Positions 2,647-20,916 of a stretch of 39,271 nucleotides of DNA are shown piece after piece. Each line of letters begins with the position of its first letter. Position 1 is the stretch's first letter. Position numbers and translations under genes: made by a program. The notes beneath the pieces were generated by a model that did no database searches, was not told the origin of the DNA, and saw only the letters and a program-made list of their open reading frames with translations. Source of the DNA: a virus; IMG/VR virus record IMGVR_UViG_3300009091_000008, positions 1 through 39,271 of that record; one strand, given 5' to 3'.

Positions 2647-3513
2647 ATGTCACGCATCCTGATTCCCGTGAGGATTCCTGACCGGGCGACGGGCGCCGAT
2701 GGCGGCGGCACGCAGGTGGCCGGGGACGCCACCTATGGGCACGTGGTCCAGAATGACTGGCGGACCGTGCTGGTGGCCACGAACACGGACGCCGGGGCTT
2801 CGCATACCGTGTCATTCGACGTGCCCAGCGTTCTGGGCGACACGGAAGACGGCCTGAACGTCCAGGCCCCGGACCGGGTGGTGACGCTGACCGCCCTTCA
2901 GCGGAAAATCATGGGCCCTTTCCCGGCCCAGTGGGACCAGGAACAGGAACACCTGGCGAATGCCAACCTGGACACCTGGACCACCGGCACGGACCTGGCG
3001 TCCTGGAACGAAAGCATTACCGCTGGGACCGTTGCCAGGGAACAGGCCAAGGTGGCCAGCCCGGGCGGGTCCGCAGCGAAGATCACCCGGACCGTGGCGT
3101 CCGGTTCCCTGGCCATCGTCCAGAACACCATCCACCTGCTGGATTCCACGAAGTACCGCCTGCGGATGGCGTGGGCCGCGGACCAGGACGGTCTGGGCCT
3201 GGTCTGTGGAATCAAAGTCTTCAACCAGGCACAGACGAACCGCCTGCAACCGGACGGGTCCTGGGCGGCCGGGGACGCCTATGCTGGGAAGTGGACCCCG
3301 CGGGTGGACTACCAGGAAGTGGAACTGCCCATTACAACGCCTGTCACCACGGGGGCGGACCTTTACACCCTGGAACTGTGGCACGTGACGCCCGGCCCCC
3401 TGGCGGCCATTTACGTGGACAACGTGTCCCTGGCCAGGTGGGACGGACTGCGCGGGGTGGTCTTCACGGTGGACAGTGCCCTGCTGAACCTGCAAGCCTT
3501 CCGGATGGGATAG
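2647..3513 (+). CDS. Head-decoration-like paralog A with inserted CBM-like jelly-roll domain
   Basis: The product has 288 residues. The first ~100 match the three downstream paralogs: IPVRIPDRA, GDATYGHVVQND, then GPFP near residue 93. A domain of roughly 165 residues is inserted after GPFP. It begins NLDTWTTGTDLASWNES and ends IYVDNVSLARWDG, the usual opening and closing pattern of CBM4/9-like jelly rolls. The host domain then resumes with its last strand (VDSALLNLQAFRMG). A short domain of this style is common beside phage capsid genes and is thought to bind the capsid surface. The insert would then be displayed outward and might bind glycans; that is inference. Confidence 0.72.
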   Translation: MSRILIPVRIPDRATGADGGGTQVAGDATYGHVVQNDWRTVLVATNTDAGASHTVSFDVPSVLGDTEDGLNVQAPDRVVTLTALQRKIMGPFPAQWDQEQEHLANANLDTWTTGTDLASWNESITAGTVAREQAKVASPGGSAAKITRTVASGSLAIVQNTIHLLDSTKYRLRMAWAADQDGLGLVCGIKVFNQAQTNRLQPDGSWAAGDAYAGKWTPRVDYQEVELPITTPVTTGADLYTLELWHVTPGPLAAIYVDNVSLARWDGLRGVVFTVDSALLNLQAFRMG

Positions 3514-3523
3514 GGGGTGGACT

Positions 3524-3883
3524 GTGGCGCGCACTGCCGTGCCGGTACAGGTGACAGCCAGAACGGGCGTGCTGTTCGCTGCGTCCGGATCCGAAGTGGC
3601 CGGGGACATTGTGAACGGCCACGAATTCGTGAATGACGGCGCCACCTATCTGTATGCCAGGAACGTGGACGTGGTGAACCCAGCCAGCATTACCGTACTG
3701 GTGGGCCGGACCGTGGATGGCCAGACCGTGGCGTCAAAGGTCCTATCCGTCACCACGAACGGCCAGAGGCTTTTCGGGCCCTGGCCCGTGGACGTTTACA
3801 ACCAGCCTACGGCCCCCACGAAGGTCTATTTTGACGTGGGGGACGTGGACCTGCGGCTGTCCATCTGGAAGCTGGGGGGTTAG
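3524..3883 (+). CDS. Head-decoration-like paralog B (single domain)
   Basis: The product has 119 residues with a GTG start at 3524, preceded by GGGGGTGG. It is the plain form of the family: an N-terminal PVQVTARTGV strand, GDIVNGHEFVNDG, a TVDGQ turn, GPWPVDVYNQP and a closing DVDLRLSIWKL strand. The length equals paralogs A and C minus their inserts, which defines the insertion point clearly. It is probably a capsid-surface protein. The final TAG is separated from the ATG of paralog C by only CCC, so ribosomes may re-initiate. Confidence 0.7.
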   Translation: MARTAVPVQVTARTGVLFAASGSEVAGDIVNGHEFVNDGATYLYARNVDVVNPASITVLVGRTVDGQTVASKVLSVTTNGQRLFGPWPVDVYNQPTAPTKVYFDVGDVDLRLSIWKLGG

Positions 3884-3886
3884 CCC

Positions 3887-4762
3887 ATGCGGTACGAAGT
3901 CCCGGTGACCAGGCTTTCCCGGGCCACGGTGAACGTCGGTGGGACCGGCGGGGCCACGGTCGGGGACGTGACCTATGGCCACGTGGTGCGGAATGACGGC
4001 CGGACCCTGCTGCACGTGCTGAATACGTCCGGGTCGTCCAGGATTGTGACCGTCCGCTACCCCAACCTGGTGGACGGCAACCAGCCCACGGCCAAGCAAC
4101 TGACCATCCCCGGCGGCACGGACGTGCAGTGTCTGGTGGGGCCCTTCCCGGACAGCTACAGCGAAGACCGACACGGGTTCCAGGTCCTGCCAAACCCCGG
4201 CTTTGAAACCTGGGCCAGCGGCACGGACCCGTCCCAGTGGCTGGAAGTCCTGACGGGCGGGGTGGTGGAACGGGTCACCCAGGGGGACCTGCTGCGGGAG
4301 GGGTCCGGATCCTGCTGCCGCCTGCGGCGGACTGGGGCCGGGGACCTGTACGTTTACACGGACCCCGCGGTGCGGTTCCACCTTCCGGAGTCTTCCCGCT
4401 GCGTGGTGGAAGGCTGGGCCCGCCGGGAGGGGAACACGGCATCCACGCTGGGCGTCCAGATGGTGGAAGCCCTGGCTGCCCCGGACGTGTACCTGGCCGC
4501 GGATGGGGTCACCTGGTCCACCACCCCGCAGGACGTGGTGGCCGTCGCCCTGTCCGAACAGTGGCAGTTTTTCCGGGTTCCCTTCACGGCCCGCAGCGTC
4601 CTGGGCACCCAGTACGGCCTTCAACTGACGGAGCGGACCGCAAACGTGGGGGCGCGGGCACTGGTGGATGACTGGCGGGTGGGCCTGCTGGACCCGCCCA
4701 CGGGGTTCCAGGTGGACGTATCGGGATCGGGCCTGTACCTGCGCGCCTATCGGCTGGCGTAG
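3887..4762 (+). CDS. Head-decoration-like paralog C with inserted CBM-like jelly-roll domain
   Basis: The product has 291 residues. The N-terminal ~90 match paralog B (VPVTRLSRATV, GDVTYGHVVRNDGRTLLHV, LVDG, GPFPDSY). An insert beginning VLPNPGFETWASGTDPSQW and ending ALVDDWRVGLLD has the CBM4/9-like pattern. The last strand (VDVSGSGLYLRAYRLA) then completes the original domain. The insertion site is the same as in paralog A, but the two inserts are only distantly alike, so they diverged long ago or were acquired separately. The likely role is a capsid decoration that displays a ligand-binding domain. Confidence 0.72.
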   Translation: MRYEVPVTRLSRATVNVGGTGGATVGDVTYGHVVRNDGRTLLHVLNTSGSSRIVTVRYPNLVDGNQPTAKQLTIPGGTDVQCLVGPFPDSYSEDRHGFQVLPNPGFETWASGTDPSQWLEVLTGGVVERVTQGDLLREGSGSCCRLRRTGAGDLYVYTDPAVRFHLPESSRCVVEGWARREGNTASTLGVQMVEALAAPDVYLAADGVTWSTTPQDVVAVALSEQWQFFRVPFTARSVLGTQYGLQLTERTANVGARALVDDWRVGLLDPPTGFQVDVSGSGLYLRAYRLA

Positions 4763-4773
4763 AGGGGGGAGCC

Positions 4774-5178
4774 ATGGCAAGGGTGGACATTCCGGTCACG
4801 AACCTGGTGCAAGCGGGCGTCCTACAGATAGGGCCGGGCACTACGGAAGTCACGGGGAACAATGCCCAGGGGCACCGTTTCAAGAATGACGGCCGGGTTT
4901 TCCTGCACGTCCGGAACCTGAACGCGGGTTCCGCCCACGGCATTCAACTGGTGGCGGGCGATGGGCTGAAGCCGGACGGCCTGGCCCCGGCGGACTACAC
5001 CCTGTCCATTCCGCCCCTGAACGAACGCCTATGGGGCCCGTTCCCTCCGCAGCTTTACAACCAGGTCCAGAATGCTGAACCGGAATACTGCTGGGTGGGC
5101 GCCAGCGGGGACGTTCAGCTACGCTTCCGCGCCTTCCGTATTCCGGAGGGTGACCCCTTGCAGGGCGGGGAATACTAG
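4774..5178 (+). CDS. Head-decoration-like paralog D (single domain)
   Basis: The product has 134 residues. A ribosome site (GAGGGGGGAGCC) precedes the ATG at 4774. It shares the family landmarks: IPVTNLVQAGV, QGHRFKNDGRVFLHVRN, GPFPPQLYNQV and a terminal VQLRFRAFRI strand, followed by a short extra tail (PEGDPLQGGEY). It carries no insert. Four paralogs in a row point to local duplication. Having plain and inserted forms side by side would let the capsid carry a mixture of decorations. The paralogy is visible in the sequence; the structural role is inferred. Confidence 0.68.
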   Translation: MARVDIPVTNLVQAGVLQIGPGTTEVTGNNAQGHRFKNDGRVFLHVRNLNAGSAHGIQLVAGDGLKPDGLAPADYTLSIPPLNERLWGPFPPQLYNQVQNAEPEYCWVGASGDVQLRFRAFRIPEGDPLQGGEY

Positions 5179-6442: not shown

Positions 6443-7930
6443 ATGCTGACAATTCAGGAAGTTACGGCCCAGTCCCTGGCCGAAGCGGCCAAGGTGGTGG
6501 GCAATGGGGACCTTTCGAAGTCCATCACCACGGCCACCGGCCTGACCGGGGTGCGGCTGGATGCGGCCGCAAAGCAACTGGTTCCCCTTATGTCCCCGTT
6601 CCGGCAGTCCATCCCCAGGATGGTGAAGGATGGGGCGACTGCCAGTCAGTGGAAGGCCATCACCGGGCTGTCCCACCCGAAGCTGTCCGTAGCGGAGGAA
6701 GCGGCGGGGGCCCTGTTCACCACCACGGTGGCTTCGAAGTCCGCCAGCTACAAGTCCATGGCCCTTCGCGGGAAGGTGACCAGGGAAGCGGTGGCAGCGT
6801 CCCAGGGCTTTGACCCCGCGCTGCGGAAGGAAACGGCCAACACGCTGCTGCTGGCCATGAAGCTGGAAGAAATCTACATCCTGGGCGGGAACGTGACGGC
6901 GACCGGGAACCCGGCCGCGCCCACGCTGACCCTGGCCACGACGGCGGGCAGCCTGGCCCCGTCCACCACCACGTATTACGGCCGGATCGTCGGCCTGACC
7001 GCACTTGCCGCCAACCGGGTGACCATCAATCGCCCGGATGACGTGAACGCGAATTCAGAATCCATGTTTGACGGCGCCGTGGTGGCGGCCTTTGCGTCCA
7101 CGGACGGCCTGACCATGGAAGGCGCGGAAGGAAACAGCGGTGCCCAGACCGGCACCAGCAAGGCCCTGAAGGTGACCTGGACCCCGCTTGCGGGGTGCGT
7201 GGCTTACGCTGTTTTTATCGGCACCAGTGCTGGTGCGGCCAACCTGTGGTGTCAGGGGATCTTCACCCAGACGCAGGTATGCTTCAAGACTCTCCAGACT
7301 TCCACCACCATCAAAGCGGACAGTGCCAGCATTCCGGCCGCGGACGACACGGCGGATGCCCTGTCCTATGACGGCATCATCCCCAGCCTTCAGGCCGCCG
7401 GGTCCGGCGCGTACCTGCGGAACCTGAATGCCAAGCTGTCCCAGGCGGGTGGTGAAGTGGCCGAAGTCCAGGAAGCCCTGGCCGTCCTGTGGGACACCAT
7501 GAAGCTGGGCAAAATCCGGATTCTGGTGGCTGGCCAGGAACAGCGGACCATTACGAAGCTGGGCATTCTGACCGGAGGCGGGCCCACAATCAACGTGAAC
7601 CCCGGCGACGTGAACGGCCGGGCCAGTATCGTGCAGGGCTACCACGTGGGCTACATCCTGAACGCCAGCACGGGCGACGTTTGCCCCGTGGAAACCATGC
7701 CCTGGCTGCCCGGCGGGTCCATCCTGCTGCTGCCCATGGAAATCCCGTACCCTGACGCCAACCAGGGAAGCCCCTTTGATATGGCCATGGGCTTTGACTG
7801 GGAGCGGTGGGACTACGGCACCACGTCCAGCACGGGCCCCGTGTATGAATTCGAAGTCAGGTGCTACGGCGCCCTGCGGGCCATCTTCACGGGTGGATGC
7901 GGGTACATCCACAACATCCACAAGAGCTAA
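6443..7930 (+). CDS. Major capsid protein (HK97-fold type) with Ig/FN3-like insertion
   Basis: The product has 495 residues and is preceded by GCGGAGGAAGTCAAGCC. The order of genes (terminase, portal, protease, this) and the sequence style (SPFRQSIPRM, GALFTTTVASKSASYKSMALRGKVTREA, then a C-terminal WLPGGSILLLPMEIPYP and WDYGTTSSTGPVYEFEV) identify the major head protein. It is longer than a typical ~300-350-residue HK97 capsid protein because of a segment at about 155-285. That segment starts with APTLTLATTAGSLAPSTTTYY and ends near WTPLAGCVAYAVFIGTS, and it looks like an inserted Ig/FN3-type sandwich that would project from the shell. Confidence 0.85.
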   Translation: MLTIQEVTAQSLAEAAKVVGNGDLSKSITTATGLTGVRLDAAAKQLVPLMSPFRQSIPRMVKDGATASQWKAITGLSHPKLSVAEEAAGALFTTTVASKSASYKSMALRGKVTREAVAASQGFDPALRKETANTLLLAMKLEEIYILGGNVTATGNPAAPTLTLATTAGSLAPSTTTYYGRIVGLTALAANRVTINRPDDVNANSESMFDGAVVAAFASTDGLTMEGAEGNSGAQTGTSKALKVTWTPLAGCVAYAVFIGTSAGAANLWCQGIFTQTQVCFKTLQTSTTIKADSASIPAADDTADALSYDGIIPSLQAAGSGAYLRNLNAKLSQAGGEVAEVQEALAVLWDTMKLGKIRILVAGQEQRTITKLGILTGGGPTINVNPGDVNGRASIVQGYHVGYILNASTGDVCPVETMPWLPGGSILLLPMEIPYPDANQGSPFDMAMGFDWERWDYGTTSSTGPVYEFEVRCYGALRAIFTGGCGYIHNIHKS

Positions 7931-10902: not shown

Positions 10903-11454
10903 ATGCCCAGTGCCCTGAATTTCAGCATCGGACCGGCGGTGGTCAAGGTGGGCCCCTACGTGACCGCCGGGGGGGCGGGGACCGCGACGGACCGGGGGTA
11001 TACGAAGAACCCCGCTACCGTCCAGGTCACCCTGAATGACTACGAAATCAAGACGGAACAGGCTTACGGGACGCTGCGGAAGGTGCCGATTGATGGCCAG
11101 GTGAAGGTGAAGGCTACCCTGTCTGAAGCCACCCTCACCAACATCAAGGACATTCTCCGTCAGCCTACCGGGAACCTGACCGGCACCGAACCGAACGCCA
11201 CCCTGCTGGTGGGGGCCTTCGGGGAGATTTACCACCAGGTGGTCTTTGTCGGGAAGGGCGCCAGGGCTACGGCCACGGGCGCGGATGCCACCCGGACCTG
11301 GACTTTTCACCGCTGTATCGTCGAAAGCATCGGGGAATTCAGCGTGGGGAAGGGCGGGGAGATGGTGGCGGAAGTCACCTGGGACGTGCTGTATGACGAA
11401 ACCATCAGCGCGGCAAACAAGTTCTGGTCCGTCAGCGATAGCGGGGCCACCTAG
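10903..11454 (+). CDS. Major tail tube protein
   Basis: The product has 183 residues and a clear ribosome site (GGGAGGAAAACGG). The content fits tail tube proteins: GPAVVKVGPYVTAG, TLNDYEIKTEQAYGTL, IDGQVKVKATLSEATLTNI and a C-terminal strand-rich segment ending in WDVLYDETISAANKFWSV. It comes just before the chaperone-position gene and the tape measure, which is the normal siphovirus order. It polymerises into the hollow tail tube. Eight of its ten Glu codons are GAA, while all ten Lys codons are AAG. Confidence 0.78.
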   Translation: MPSALNFSIGPAVVKVGPYVTAGGAGTATDRGYTKNPATVQVTLNDYEIKTEQAYGTLRKVPIDGQVKVKATLSEATLTNIKDILRQPTGNLTGTEPNATLLVGAFGEIYHQVVFVGKGARATATGADATRTWTFHRCIVESIGEFSVGKGGEMVAEVTWDVLYDETISAANKFWSVSDSGAT

Positions 11455-12125: not shown

Positions 12126-14417
12126 GTGGCCGAACAGAACACAGTACGCACGGTCCTGAAATTCCTGCTGGAAGGCGGGGACGTGCCCGCCGACGTGGCC
12201 AAGCGGTTGGAGCAGCTTGGCCAAAAAGCCAAGGTGGCCCAGCAGGACCTGAAGGGCACCAGCGGCGCCGTCAAAGACCTGGCCGGGCAACTGTCCAGCT
12301 ACCTGGGGGCCGCTGCGGTCGGCGCCTTCGTGAAGTCCGCAGTCTCTGACTTCGCCACCCTGGAACGTACCCTGAATGCCACGTCGGACCAGATGACCCG
12401 CATGGGCCTGGACGGGGGCCGGGCCATCCAGGGTGTCCGCCGGGACCTGGAAGCCCTGGCTGCCGGGGGTGGCCCACTGGTGTCCGAAACCCTGCCGGGC
12501 TTCCAGAAATTCCTGGGCATCACGCAGGACGTGGGCGCGGCCATGGCAGCCACGAAGCTGGCCGCGGATGCTTCGGAGCGTGGCACGCTGGAATACGGGG
12601 CGGCCATGGACGCCGTGGCCCAGCTAATTCAGGGCAGGCCGATGGGCGCGGCCATGGCCCTGAACCTGCAACTGCGTGACCAGTCCGGCCGGTTGAAGAC
12701 GAATGCGGAACTGATGCAGGAAGTGGTGGCCGCGGTGGGCGGCCTGGGGGACGCCTTCCAGGACACCCAGAACAAGCTGGACCAGGCCGGGGCCGGGTGG
12801 GAACGCTTCAAGACGAAGGCCGGGGAAGGGCTGTCCGTGCTGGCCGGGTGGGCGGCCAAGGGGCTGGGCGCCCTGACAACCTACGCCCAGGACCTGGGGG
12901 CATGGTACGGGTTCGTGGTGAACGGGGCCCTGGACGTGGCCCGGAACCTGGGCGAAATCTTCAGCGCGGCGTTTGACCTGAAAAAGCTGGCCACGGATCC
13001 GGGCCAGTGGTGGGCGGACCTGGGGGCGGCCGGGAAAAAGGTCACGGATGACCTGGCCCTGTCCTGGCAGACGCTGACCGAACAGATAGCGGAGAATCAC
13101 CGGGACATAGGGAAGGATGCTGCCACCACGGCCACGGACCTGGAAAAGCTGCTGGCCCAGGCCAGAAAGAAAGCGGCCGCGGAACAGGCAGAGGAAGACA
13201 AGAAGAACGCCGAAAAGCGGATGGAATACGAAGCCCGGGCGGCCCTGGCCCTGGAAGCGGCCAAGGTCAAGGCCACAGAGGAAGGCAGCCAGGCGCGGCT
13301 GGACGCCATGCTGGAAGCCCTGCGGGTGGAACACGAACAGCGGCTGGCCGAAGCCCGCAAGCTGAACGCTGACCTGGCCACGGAAGACCAGCGGTATGCC
13401 CTGGAACGCCTGGCCCTGATAAACCAGTTCCACGCTGCCTGGCTGGCCATCGAAGCGGAGAACGCGAAAGCCCGGGCGGACGCCGAACAGGAAGCCTTCC
13501 TGGAACGCCTGGCGGAACGGAGGGAACAGGCGGGCCTGGCCGTGGAAGCGGAGGGGGAGCGGGAAGACGCGGAGCGGGACGCCAGGTATGCGGACCTGCT
13601 GGACCGGGCGGGAGCCTTCCAGGATCAACTGGCCGCCCTGGACGCGGAAGCCCTGGACACCCGGCGGGAACGGGAACTGGCAGCCGTGGATGCGGAATGG
13701 GAAGACGCCAGGAACCGGGCCCTGGAAGGGGATGCCGCGGCCGCGGAGGAATTGAATAACACCCAGCGGTGGGAAGACCGGAAGGCGGCCGTGGAAGCCC
13801 GGTACGCTGGGGACCGGAAGGCCCTGGAAAAAGGGGTCAAGGAATTCAAGCGGCAGCAGATGATGGAAGGCGCGCAACTGGCCATTGCCAGCCTGCGGAC
13901 CATCTTCGGGAACAGTAAGGGCTTCGCCATCGCGGAAGCCATCATGAACACGTACCAGGGCGCGACCCGGGCCCTGAAGGATTACCCCCAGCCCTATGCC
14001 AGTATCGTGGCGGCCCTGACCATTGCCGCGGGCATGAAACAGGTGGCGGAAATTCGGAAACAGCAGCCCACGGAAGGCAAGGGCTTTGATGACCCGGCTA
14101 ATGATCGGTTGGCGTATCTGGGCGGCCGGAAGTGGGCCACGGACCTGGTGGCCATGGTGGGCCGCGGGTTCCAGGAAGGGGTGAACCTGTCTATGGCTGG
14201 GATGGCGCGGGGCCCGTCCGCGGACGTGCGGATGCCGGACAGCCCCGCACCGGCACCGGCCGTGGTCCAGGCCCCGGGCATCAGCCGGACCGTGGAAGCT
14301 GGTCCACGGGTGGCCCTGAACGTGGGCGTGCTGGTGGCGGACGAGGAAAGCTTGAGGCAACTGAACCGGGAACTGGACCGGGTGGCCGCCCGGGACGAAA
14401 ACAGGCTGGTGGGCTGA
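12126..14417 (+). CDS. Tail tape measure protein
   Basis: GTG start at 12126; the product has 763 residues. The N-terminal half contains Ala/Gly-rich amphipathic segments and a hydrophobic WYGFVVNGALDVA stretch. Residues ~330-590 are a long Glu/Ala/Arg-rich coiled coil. The C-terminal part has AEAIMNTYQGATRALKDYPQ and IVAALTIAAGMKQVAEIRKQ, a hallmark of tape measure proteins. It sets tail length and is ejected with the DNA. At about 1.5 angstrom per residue the tail would be near 115 nm. The stop overlaps the next ATG. Confidence 0.88.
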   Translation: MAEQNTVRTVLKFLLEGGDVPADVAKRLEQLGQKAKVAQQDLKGTSGAVKDLAGQLSSYLGAAAVGAFVKSAVSDFATLERTLNATSDQMTRMGLDGGRAIQGVRRDLEALAAGGGPLVSETLPGFQKFLGITQDVGAAMAATKLAADASERGTLEYGAAMDAVAQLIQGRPMGAAMALNLQLRDQSGRLKTNAELMQEVVAAVGGLGDAFQDTQNKLDQAGAGWERFKTKAGEGLSVLAGWAAKGLGALTTYAQDLGAWYGFVVNGALDVARNLGEIFSAAFDLKKLATDPGQWWADLGAAGKKVTDDLALSWQTLTEQIAENHRDIGKDAATTATDLEKLLAQARKKAAAEQAEEDKKNAEKRMEYEARAALALEAAKVKATEEGSQARLDAMLEALRVEHEQRLAEARKLNADLATEDQRYALERLALINQFHAAWLAIEAENAKARADAEQEAFLERLAERREQAGLAVEAEGEREDAERDARYADLLDRAGAFQDQLAALDAEALDTRRERELAAVDAEWEDARNRALEGDAAAAEELNNTQRWEDRKAAVEARYAGDRKALEKGVKEFKRQQMMEGAQLAIASLRTIFGNSKGFAIAEAIMNTYQGATRALKDYPQPYASIVAALTIAAGMKQVAEIRKQQPTEGKGFDDPANDRLAYLGGRKWATDLVAMVGRGFQEGVNLSMAGMARGPSADVRMPDSPAPAPAVVQAPGISRTVEAGPRVALNVGVLVADEESLRQLNRELDRVAARDENRLVG

Positions 14418-15082
14418 TGGCTGGACCTATCAGGACCCGAACCGTGGGGCTGCTGGCGAATGGCGGCGGGGAAGACCTGTTCTGGAACGGGTCCGTATAC
14501 CGGCCGTCTAACTGGACCGTGGCCGGGGCGTCCACAATGACCCAGATAAATATAGACACCATCCAGGGCCGCTATGCGTGGGCCATCTGGAACGGGGCGA
14601 CGGGTGGCGTGCCGCCTGGCCCCACGTCCTACGTGGCCCTGGGCCCTGCCGTGGCCCTTCCGCGGAATGCCTGGCTGGTCTTCGGGATGCACAGCACGCA
14701 CATGGGGGGCGACTCTAACCCCACGAACATGGCAGGCGCGGGCATCTGGGCGTGGACCATTCGGAACGTCACGCGGTCCGTGCAGTGGAATGAAGCCACC
14801 GGGACGTGGACCGCGGACGGGTCCATCACCCGGGACCTGCCATATACCGTGCAGACGGACTACCGGCGCCAGGGCCATTTCTGGGTGCCGCTGAATGATG
14901 CGGCTTTCCAGGACACAGATGTTTATGAACTGCGGCACGTGGCCCAGTATTCCTACACCAGCAGCGGCACGGCCCATGACCGTATCTGGTGGCTGGGACC
15001 GTATCACCGCAGGCTGGACGTGCTGGCTGCCAGGTACATCACCAGCACCCCGGCCCAGGCCGGGCCGCCGCGCTACATATAG
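14417..15082 (+). CDS. Tail-tip region protein, possible jelly-roll fold
   Basis: The product has 221 residues and starts at the ATG that overlaps the tape measure stop. It is Trp/Tyr-rich and beta-rich (GRYAWAIWNGATGG, GIWAWTIRNVTRSVQW, TADYRRQGHFWVPLND-like segments) and ends DRIWWLGPYHRRLDVLA. The layout recalls the jelly-roll domains elsewhere in this genome, but the match is weak. In siphoviruses the gene after the tape measure usually encodes the distal tail protein. A distal-tail or host-contact role is therefore inferred from position. Confidence 0.5.
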   Translation: MAGPIRTRTVGLLANGGGEDLFWNGSVYRPSNWTVAGASTMTQINIDTIQGRYAWAIWNGATGGVPPGPTSYVALGPAVALPRNAWLVFGMHSTHMGGDSNPTNMAGAGIWAWTIRNVTRSVQWNEATGTWTADGSITRDLPYTVQTDYRRQGHFWVPLNDAAFQDTDVYELRHVAQYSYTSSGTAHDRIWWLGPYHRRLDVLAARYITSTPAQAGPPRYI

Positions 15083-15091
15083 GGGGGCGCC

Positions 15092-17896
15092 GTGCAGGAA
15101 GTCCGGACCAGCCAGTTTCTGACGCTGAACATCCTGGAAAACGGCGACCTGGAAACCTGGGCCGCCGGGGTTCCGTCTGGCTGGACTGCCGTGCTGTCGG
15201 CTGGGAACAGCATCACCCAGGAAACCGGGGCGGGCTATGTCTACAGTGGCGCGTCCGCCTGCAAGGTCCTGCACCCGAACACGGGGGACTGCTACATAAA
15301 GCGGGGCACGTCCCAGGTCCTGGAACCGGGGGGCTGGTATCTGGCGAAAGTGGCCATGGCCCGGGGCATCGGGGAATCATCCTATGCGCCCGGAACCGCG
15401 GTCCGCCTGCGGCTGGTGAACGTCACGAAGAACACCAGCTATAACGGGGCCACGGCGGCCTGGGCGTCTGGCGTCACCCAGCAGGTGGCAAACACGGTGG
15501 GGACAAAGTACGTGCTGTCCCGTGTCTGGGTGAAGGTCCCCGGGGAGTATTCAATTTCTGATGTTTACGAAATCCGGGCGGGCTTCCTGTCCAGTTCCGG
15601 GACTGGCATCACCGGGTGGATTGATGCGGTCAGCCTGACCGGGCCCTTCCCCCAGCCGTCCCATAAGCTGGCCAAAGTCCAGGTGACCACGAACCGCCAG
15701 CCTACGGTGAGGCAGTATCAGGTCAGCCTGGTGGACCCCTGGGGCCGGACCTGGGACGTGACGGAGCGGCTGGAACTGGACGGCCTGGGCACGCTGACGG
15801 AACAGGGGGAAGAATCCCTGCTGCAACTGGTCCATGGGGACTTGACCCTGACCCTGCTGGACCGGGACGGGTTCCTGGAAGACCTGCTGGCCACGGCCCA
15901 GCCCACGGACCGCTGGCAGGTAATCATCAGCCGGGAAACCCAGCGGCGGCGTACCAGGTGGGAACGCCTGTTTGCGGGCGTGCTGGACCTGCCCTGGTCC
16001 GCGAAGCGGAACCCGGGGGATGGGACCTTCACCCTGCGTGCCTTCACGTATTCCAAAGACCTGGAAGCGGCCACGGCGGAAGGGGTGTGCCGCACGTTCC
16101 CTGCCCTGCTGGGGACCGTCAGCAGCGGTGGCACGGCTGTGACCGTCAGCCCGGACACCACGGGGCTGATGCGGGGGGACAGCTTCACCCTGGATGATGG
16201 CGTGAACCGTCAAGACTTCCAGGTGGAATACATCATCAGCACCAGCCAGGTCCGCACCAGCGACACGGCATCATCCAGTTTCAGCAGCGCGGGGATGACC
16301 GTCCGGACCCCGTGGTACAGGTACAAAACCCCGGCGGAACTGGCGGCCCTGCTGCTGGCCGCGGCTGCCCCGGAGCGGTCCAGCGTGGACCTGGACGGCC
16401 TGGTGTCAGACTACCCCATCAGCAGCCCGGTCAACGCCAGCGGCACGCCCCTATCCGGAAAGCCAAAGTCAGTCACGGTGGACGGGTCCGCAGTCACGGC
16501 GACCTGGACCGCGGCGGCCTATTCGAAGCGGACGCAGGCCACCAGCCCCACGTCAGGGTTCGCGGACGGCGCCACGTCTAACGTGATGCAGGGCGACTGG
16601 ACCCCCTATCAGGATGCCGCCCCAGGGGCCGTCCTGTCCCACAGTGCGGGCACGGTGGATGCCGGGGAATTCGCCTGGGACTACGTGAATTCGCGCCGCT
16701 ACGAAATCCAGGAAATCGTGAGTGGTGGTCCTACCTATTCCCTGAACCTGTACCAGAATGGCGTGCTGCTGGTCACCCTGGAATCCAGCGGAACCGGGAA
16801 TCATTCGCACTGGCGTTGCGAATATGACCCCATCCAGAACCGTGTCTGGTACAGCTTCACGAATTCGGGCGGGGTGTCCACGTTGAAGTATTACAACGTG
16901 GTGGGCGGGACGAAGGCCACGGTATCCGGTGGATCTAACCCCGTCTGGCCGCGGTTCTGTGGCCAGTACGGCGGCGGGGTCATGCTGACCGTGGACGAAA
17001 CCACCCGGACGCTCCGTGTCTACACCACGGCCACCACGCCCGCCCTGCTGGCGTCCGTCGCCCTGCCAGCGTCTGTGGGCCGGTCCCTGCTGTGGACCGC
17101 CCGCTACCTGGACGGGTTCCTGTGCTGGCTGTCCCGGGGGCAGACCGGGACTGGTACATACCTGACGGTCCTGGACACGGAAGACTGGTCCGTGGTGGCG
17201 GTCTATCCGCTGTCCACGTCAATCCTGGGCGCGTCCGCATCCCTGCAAGCGGCCATCACGGGAACCGCTGGATTCCTGACCAGGTTTACCCCGGCAGGCG
17301 GGACCACCTGCCTGGTAGGCTGGGCCGGTGAGGAATGGGTGGTAATAGGGCGTAGCTTCCTGGGCGTTATCAGCTATGCGGATTTTGCCGGGGCATCCGT
17401 GGCCAAGGGACTGAAGGACCTGGCCACAGCCTGCCTGGCCATGCTGGTGGTGGACCATGAGGGAACGGTGTCCCTGACGCAGCGGCTGACCCTGGAAGAC
17501 CAGACGCCGAAGCTGGACCTGGGCGAACCGCTGCGGGGCGCCAGCAGGTCCACCATCTGGGACCACTACCGGGAATCAGTGGCCATCACCGGGCGGACGG
17601 ACAGCGGGGGTGACTTCGAAGTGGTGGCCGGTGAAACCGGGCGGTCCGCCAAACGCCTGTCCGTGTCCCTGGACCTGGTGACCAGCCCGGGCGCGGCCTA
17701 TGCCGTGGCCGCGGCCCTGGCGGCCTATGCCACGGCGAAGCGGGAACAGGTGGACGGGTCCTGGCGGGAAGGCCGGGAACTGGTCCGGGCCATGGACGTG
17801 GTGACCTGGGACGGGAAGACCTGGCTGGTGTCCAGCGTGCAGTCCAGCGTGGGGAAGGCAGAACAGCGTCTTCGTCTGTTTGAAATTACGGGGTGA
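15092..17896 (+). CDS. Tail hub/baseplate protein with N-terminal jelly roll and large central insertion
   Basis: GTG start at 15092; the product has 934 residues. Residues ~10-180 begin NILENGDLETWAAGVPSGW and end TGWIDAVSLTG, a CBM4/9-like domain. A hub-like section follows (YQVSLVDPWGRTWDVTERLELDG, LTLTLLDRDGFLEDL, LFAGVLDLPWSAKR). A segment of ~270 residues (roughly 490-760) has repeated Trp-containing strands, such as FAWDYVNSRRYEIQEI and WTARYLDGFLCWLSRG, suggesting a propeller-like insertion. Residues ~765-934 return to the hub fold (DHYRESVAITGRTDSGG, VTWDGKTWLVSSVQSSV). The hub should cap the tail tube, and the extra domains are likely host-contact parts. Confidence 0.65.
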   Translation: MQEVRTSQFLTLNILENGDLETWAAGVPSGWTAVLSAGNSITQETGAGYVYSGASACKVLHPNTGDCYIKRGTSQVLEPGGWYLAKVAMARGIGESSYAPGTAVRLRLVNVTKNTSYNGATAAWASGVTQQVANTVGTKYVLSRVWVKVPGEYSISDVYEIRAGFLSSSGTGITGWIDAVSLTGPFPQPSHKLAKVQVTTNRQPTVRQYQVSLVDPWGRTWDVTERLELDGLGTLTEQGEESLLQLVHGDLTLTLLDRDGFLEDLLATAQPTDRWQVIISRETQRRRTRWERLFAGVLDLPWSAKRNPGDGTFTLRAFTYSKDLEAATAEGVCRTFPALLGTVSSGGTAVTVSPDTTGLMRGDSFTLDDGVNRQDFQVEYIISTSQVRTSDTASSSFSSAGMTVRTPWYRYKTPAELAALLLAAAAPERSSVDLDGLVSDYPISSPVNASGTPLSGKPKSVTVDGSAVTATWTAAAYSKRTQATSPTSGFADGATSNVMQGDWTPYQDAAPGAVLSHSAGTVDAGEFAWDYVNSRRYEIQEIVSGGPTYSLNLYQNGVLLVTLESSGTGNHSHWRCEYDPIQNRVWYSFTNSGGVSTLKYYNVVGGTKATVSGGSNPVWPRFCGQYGGGVMLTVDETTRTLRVYTTATTPALLASVALPASVGRSLLWTARYLDGFLCWLSRGQTGTGTYLTVLDTEDWSVVAVYPLSTSILGASASLQAAITGTAGFLTRFTPAGGTTCLVGWAGEEWVVIGRSFLGVISYADFAGASVAKGLKDLATACLAMLVVDHEGTVSLTQRLTLEDQTPKLDLGEPLRGASRSTIWDHYRESVAITGRTDSGGDFEVVAGETGRSAKRLSVSLDLVTSPGAAYAVAAALAAYATAKREQVDGSWREGRELVRAMDVVTWDGKTWLVSSVQSSVGKAEQRLRLFEITG

Positions 17897-20841: not shown

Positions 20842-20916
20842 TGGTGGCCCCGGCGGGGATCGAACCCGCGTTTCCAGCTTGAAGGGCTGGGGTCCTAACC
20901 GCTAGACCACGGGGCC
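20842..20916 (-). tRNA. tRNA-Glu (anticodon UUC)
   Basis: Read on the minus strand, GGCCCCG pairs with CGGGGCC to form the acceptor stem. The D arm is GTCTAGCGGTTAGGAC, the anticodon stem-loop is CCAGC-CCTTCAA-GCTGG with anticodon TTC (complement at 20881-20883), and the T arm is GCGGG-TTCGATC-CCCGC. The 3' CCA is encoded. It is the only minus-strand gene found and converges on the lysis genes. UUC reads GAA best, and GAA is the favoured Glu codon in this genome, so it probably supports phage translation. Confidence 0.95.

Follow-up and report, generated by a model that had tools for sequence, protein, structure and literature searches.

Why two genes of a four-gene tandem array should carry a large extra domain in the middle of a small conserved protein, and where on the virus particle such proteins would act, is the question raised by a sequence of 39,271 nucleotides from an uncultured phage (positions 1 to 39,271 of IMG/VR record IMGVR_UViG_3300009091_000008), hereafter called the window. 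Four consecutive open reading frames on the plus strand, designated A to D, lie within positions 2647 to 5178 and are spaced by 3 to 11 bp (Table 1). A core of about 115 residues is common to all four, and every pair of cores scores 13 to 29 standard deviations (sd) over shuffled sequence, which rules out chance similarity; D and B, for instance, match at 34% over 123 aa (E = 1e-18). The preliminary description of this locus proposed four tandem paralogs with a common N-terminal domain up to a GPFP/GPWP motif, about 165 to 200 inserted residues in A and C, and the same last β-strand behind the insert. The positions of the reading frames and the core scores establish the tandem paralogy, and the motif is found, together with core homology, in all four proteins. 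In A about 168 and in C about 176 extra residues separate the GPFP motif from the C-terminal strands, within the range first given; the common C-terminal end is also present, except that it comprises two strands (a hairpin) and not one. The 139-aa gene directly upstream of A (2223-2642) was rejected as a fifth paralog, as its scores against the cores are at shuffle level (-0.6 to 2.2 sd); it has no family match and is unrelated to A-D.

Table 1. Coordinates of the paralogs, their cores and inserts, and the tail protein with a putative insert-like module
Feature	Position in window	Strand	Size or residues	Basis or remark
Paralog A, whole	2647-3513	+	288 aa	
Paralog A, core N-terminal part	2647-2940	+	residues 1-98	homology to B, C, and D; model pLDDT mostly >90
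Insert of A	2941-3444	+	residues ~99-266	predicted CBM4-like jelly roll; structural match 2y6j; model pLDDT ~60
Paralog A, core C-terminal hairpin	3445-3513	+	residues 267-288 and stop	pLDDT 93-96; aligns with last two strands of B
Paralog B, core only, compact	3524-3883	+	119 aa	AlphaFold2 single domain; phrog_38030, E = 6.6e-18
Paralog C, whole	3887-4762	+	291 aa	
Paralog C, core N-terminal part	3887-4165	+	residues 1-93	phrog_38030, E = 8e-8; phrog_16194, E = 1e-4
Insert of C	4166-4693	+	residues ~94-269	homolog of A insert, BLAST E = 4e-8
Paralog C, core C-terminal hairpin and stop	4694-4762	+		alignment with B, D, and relatives
Paralog D, compact core	4774-5178	+	134 aa	phrog_38030, E = 6e-14
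Window tail protein	15092-17896	+	934 aa	N terminus (residues ~13-190) probably with insert-like jelly-roll module

The array appears to be genuine. In a second contig (L001), the MuF gene, the 139-aa gene, A, B, and a cut C follow one another in the same order as in the window with 4 differences in 4205 nt, and the changes within A-C are three synonymous and one non-synonymous; because L001 repeats the gene order near-identically, a chimeric assembly is unlikely. All four frames are open, and their GC3 values (0.78 to 0.87) resemble those of the neighboring head genes. On these grounds, a sequencing or assembly artefact, or a set of decaying gene copies, is scarcely credible as the explanation of A-D and was rejected; nothing was found in its favor. 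With regard to the history of the copies, the best tree joins A with C and B with D, with weak supports (74/48 and 89/30), and alternative trees are not rejected (p-AU of 0.21 to 0.31). The pairing is the pattern expected from duplication of a two-gene cassette, at which it may hint. The DNA repeats between the copies are degenerate, indicating that the duplications are old.

The AlphaFold2 model of B (22 sequences; pLDDT of 92.5, pTM of 0.84) is a single domain, all β with one short helix, whose last two strands (100-105 and 110-117) correspond to the strands behind the insert of A. For A itself (24 sequences), the model has an N-terminal part mostly above 90 in pLDDT, an all-β insert at about 60, and strands 269-275 and 280-286 with block-mean pLDDT values of 93 to 96; one alignment row (P0008), misaligned with the core, was left out before folding. 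We assessed the unity of the N- and C-terminal parts of A by pLDDT, by the location of the strands, and by comparison with the compact B model, and we describe A as having one core domain because of that model and the confidence of the flanks. These predictions support an arrangement in which the inserts of A and C occupy the same loop, before the last β-hairpin of the sandwich. They agree with the earlier proposal of insertion into a single loop, not fusion at an end: the predicted B sandwich includes the post-insert strands, the flanks in A are mostly above 90 in pLDDT, and alignment and structure prediction, which had been suggested as the check, are consistent with one small sandwich with the insert emerging from one loop. 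Judged in this way, the N and C parts do not appear to fall into separate domains.

The inserts of A and C are themselves homologs (33% over 72 aa by BLAST; alignment score of 98, compared with a shuffled mean of 31 and sd of 5.6). The insert of A (99-268), in a model with pLDDT of about 60, superposes on the Rhodothermus carbohydrate-binding module CBM4-2 (2y6j) with a Z score of 14.0 and an RMSD of 2.6 over 144 of 167 residues (VIA-align), and it is thus predicted to adopt the jelly-roll fold of CBM4 modules (2y6j, 1gui), an assignment that goes beyond the preliminary description. Neither insert matches a Pfam family at E ≤ 10 or any PDB entry by sequence, and for this reason we call the module CBM4-like and do not file it as CBM4; unlike CBM4 modules, it has no sequence-profile match to them and is carried by a small phage protein, not by an enzyme. 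Further structural matches of the A insert are domains in phage tailspikes, in a tail fibre, and in the baseplate of phi812; CenC-like, minor tail, and tail fibre proteins are among its BFVD matches, and the C insert weakly matches a profile of phage tail fibres (phrog_15641, E = 0.002). Function cannot be deduced from fold alone, and the missing Pfam and PDB sequence matches would also suit a structural spacer or a protein-binding jelly roll that does not bind carbohydrate. However, the best structural matches of the insert are CBM4 modules, and in phages this fold is found mostly on adsorption proteins, so we consider such a role the less likely one.

Relatives of the insert point to tail proteins as well. 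Among those found, the closest (48% over 62 aa) forms a domain of a tail protein in another locus, L056; that protein has at least 824 residues and is encoded two genes downstream of a tape-measure-like gene. In the window itself, the 934-aa tail protein resembles the inserts weakly (insert-profile E = 0.0023; hhalign E = 0.0014 over 49 columns), and the NxxLETW signature is common to the inserts and the start of this protein, which probably begins with a jelly-roll module of the same kind. The simplest reading is that a tail-type adhesion module would have been exchanged with the core scaffold. The ORF that precedes the 934-aa gene (14132-15082, its start likely well inside) encodes a β-rich, tail-tip-like protein that has no Pfam match.

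The core belongs to a family that is already known, though uncharacterised. In a profile search, A to D match phrog_38030 with E values of 5e-8, 7e-18, 8e-8, and 6e-14, respectively, and the same profile is matched by 22 of 22 aligned compact members. The family (phrog_38030/16194/24894) consists of phage proteins of about 110 aa, annotated as unknown or, for some members in PHROGs and RefSeq, as tail protein; phiSASD1 gp31, REQ1 Orf72, Chymera gp13, and Kromp gp90 are named examples. A profile of the 22 compact members identified 100 other ORFs in 89 fetched loci, and all 100 are compact, none having an insert. Most of these loci were fetched by N-terminal pattern scans, so that the sample covers part of the family and, since the patterns are N-terminal, should not be biased against inserts. 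From the GPF motif to the C terminus, 89 relatives have 21 to 59 residues, compared with 199 in A and 206 in C; members are usually about 105 to 120 aa long, which is a habit and not a definition, and B and D fit this length while A and C exceed it through their inserts. The loop in which the inserts lie is among the most length-variable stretches in the compact relatives. Two or three family copies, again all compact, occur in ten other loci, and the four copies of the window exceed the maximum of three in the other fetched loci. Tandem copies are thus ordinary and inserts unusual, and it is the insert-bearing copies, as judged by sequence, that set the window apart. Among 398 genomes of the Thalassospira phylum, a search run without a positive control found nothing.

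By structure, the core resembles phage proteins in BFVD that are uncharacterised (E = 4e-10). In the PDB, it has no Foldseek match with E below 0.001 and no sequence match; its best fold match there has a Z score of 7.2, and no decoration protein is among the matches listed. The core may nevertheless have one of the folds of solved decoration proteins (β-tulip, OB, Ig-like, or β-tadpole), which such a list does not exclude.

Gene order in the window suggests the head. A-D are located in the head module, where the portal-MuF gene precedes them and the genes for the protease and the major capsid protein (the latter at 6443-7930) follow. The best candidate for a major tail gene (10903-11454) is about 5.7 kb away. 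Family genes are absent throughout the genomes of four phages whose capsid proteins are related (THSA-485A, Polewnik, MMB025, and Sonali), so A-D look like an addition to this module; a search of IMG/VR for relatives of the major capsid protein gave nothing useful, and the window's TerL has only a distant likeness to Thermus and other phages. Some relatives adjoin head genes too: one follows a major capsid gene (L043), that of Streptomyces phage Marky (L058, 4752-8466) lies between the protease gene and a large gene annotated as ADP-ribosyltransferase, and three minor head or head morphogenesis profiles occur upstream in 3 of 67 non-redundant loci each. A-D may accordingly attach to the head lattice, at separate sites or at a common one, with the A and C inserts displayed from the head, and we give this arrangement not far short of an even chance. 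It has to be weighed against the neighbors of the family as a whole, which are most often tail terminator or major tail genes: upstream, profiles of the major tail protein and of the tail terminator each occur in 9 of 67 non-redundant loci, and major tail protein again leads downstream (10 of 63). The absence of decoration proteins from the fold matches listed also speaks against it, as does Chymera, in which a separate cementing-protein gene adjoins the capsid gene and the family member is near the tail genes.

The core could instead sit on the tail tube or the head-tail joint, where the inserts would give the tail a larger adhesive surface. The family genes of REQ1, Yara, and Chymera are flanked by the tail terminator gene and the major tail protein gene; that of ctuI7215 is directly upstream of the tail tube gene; and phiSASD1 gp31, annotated as a tail protein, is encoded in the neck region. 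These positions, the neighbor counts, and the insert module itself, which is typical of tail proteins, make a tail or neck location a serious possibility, albeit one below an even chance, since the genes of the window lie inside the head module and at a distance from the candidate major tail gene. Several members in Streptomyces phages adjoin HNH or small-terminase genes and not structural genes. Such a variable position across loci suits an accessory protein, and because of it, "capsid decoration" cannot be asserted. Placement in this head module is the main argument for the likeness to capsid decoration in the preliminary description; it does not extend to the relatives, most of which lie beside tail genes, or to the listed fold matches, and a head-only reading of the core family was rejected because synteny is mostly with tail terminator and major tail genes.

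Two further observations concern other parts of the window. The portal-MuF gene (32-2002; 1044 aa in L001) encodes a C-terminal HEMAH motif in a stretch of residues ~524-609 (about 1601-1858) that weakly matches Peptidase_M90 (E = 0.012), possibly a metallopeptidase-like domain whose carrier protein may accompany the particle. A tRNA-Glu gene (ttc) is located at 20842-20916 on the minus strand.

We favor, as fairly probable, a reading in which an accessory sandwich on the virion surface displays a CBM4-like domain from a loop; a place on the virion is suggested because the relatives, in the family loci examined, are mostly among virion genes. A-D would represent a small accessory protein of the virion in tandem copies, its β-sandwich docking on the particle, with B and D as the bare docking module. 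In A and C, a CBM4-type jelly roll, otherwise found in phage tail proteins, would occupy the loop before the last β-hairpin, such that the docking sandwich stays closed while the jelly roll points away from the particle and would aid the phage in holding on to glycans on the host or in its matrix. More tentatively, the sandwich may be a generic display scaffold: a cassette of one insert-bearing and one bare copy would have been duplicated in tandem to give A-B-C-D, the virion would carry a mixed array of bare and adhesin-bearing subunits, and the adhesin module would be common to the tail tip and the scaffold.

Adhesion domains of phages occur on major capsid, tail tube, and fibre proteins and are often Ig-like. 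Glycan-binding domains are found on the head, tail tube, and baseplate of a single virion in mycobacteriophage Douge (PMC13033339); however, the Ig-like domains of its major capsid and tail-tube proteins and the CBM of BppU are fused to or built into major structural proteins (PMC13033339), whereas those of the window are nested in accessory paralogs. The decoration proteins Hoc of T4, pb10 of T5, and gp8.5 of phi29 have been proposed to aid adhesion via carbohydrates (review PMC7602432). A-D are likewise proposed here as accessory surface adhesion proteins, but they have no sequence relation, and no listed fold relation, to these three, for which capsid binding has been shown. Compared with the other members found of phrog_38030/16194/24894, with which they share core sequence, the length of B and D, and tandem arrangement (two or three copies in the ten loci), the genes of the window alone have inserts, four copies, and a placement between MuF and protease genes. 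A limited search of open-licence literature found no CBM4-like module nested in a loop of this core family.

What the locus appears to offer is a small accessory protein, bare in many phages, with a CBM4-type module nested in its loop, and hence a natural insertion site in a widespread, putatively virion-associated scaffold of about 115 residues. It also corrects an easy inference, in that one genome suggests head decoration while the family points at least equally to the tail. The function of an uncharacterised family thereby becomes testable, through the docking site of the core and the binding of the insert to host glycans.
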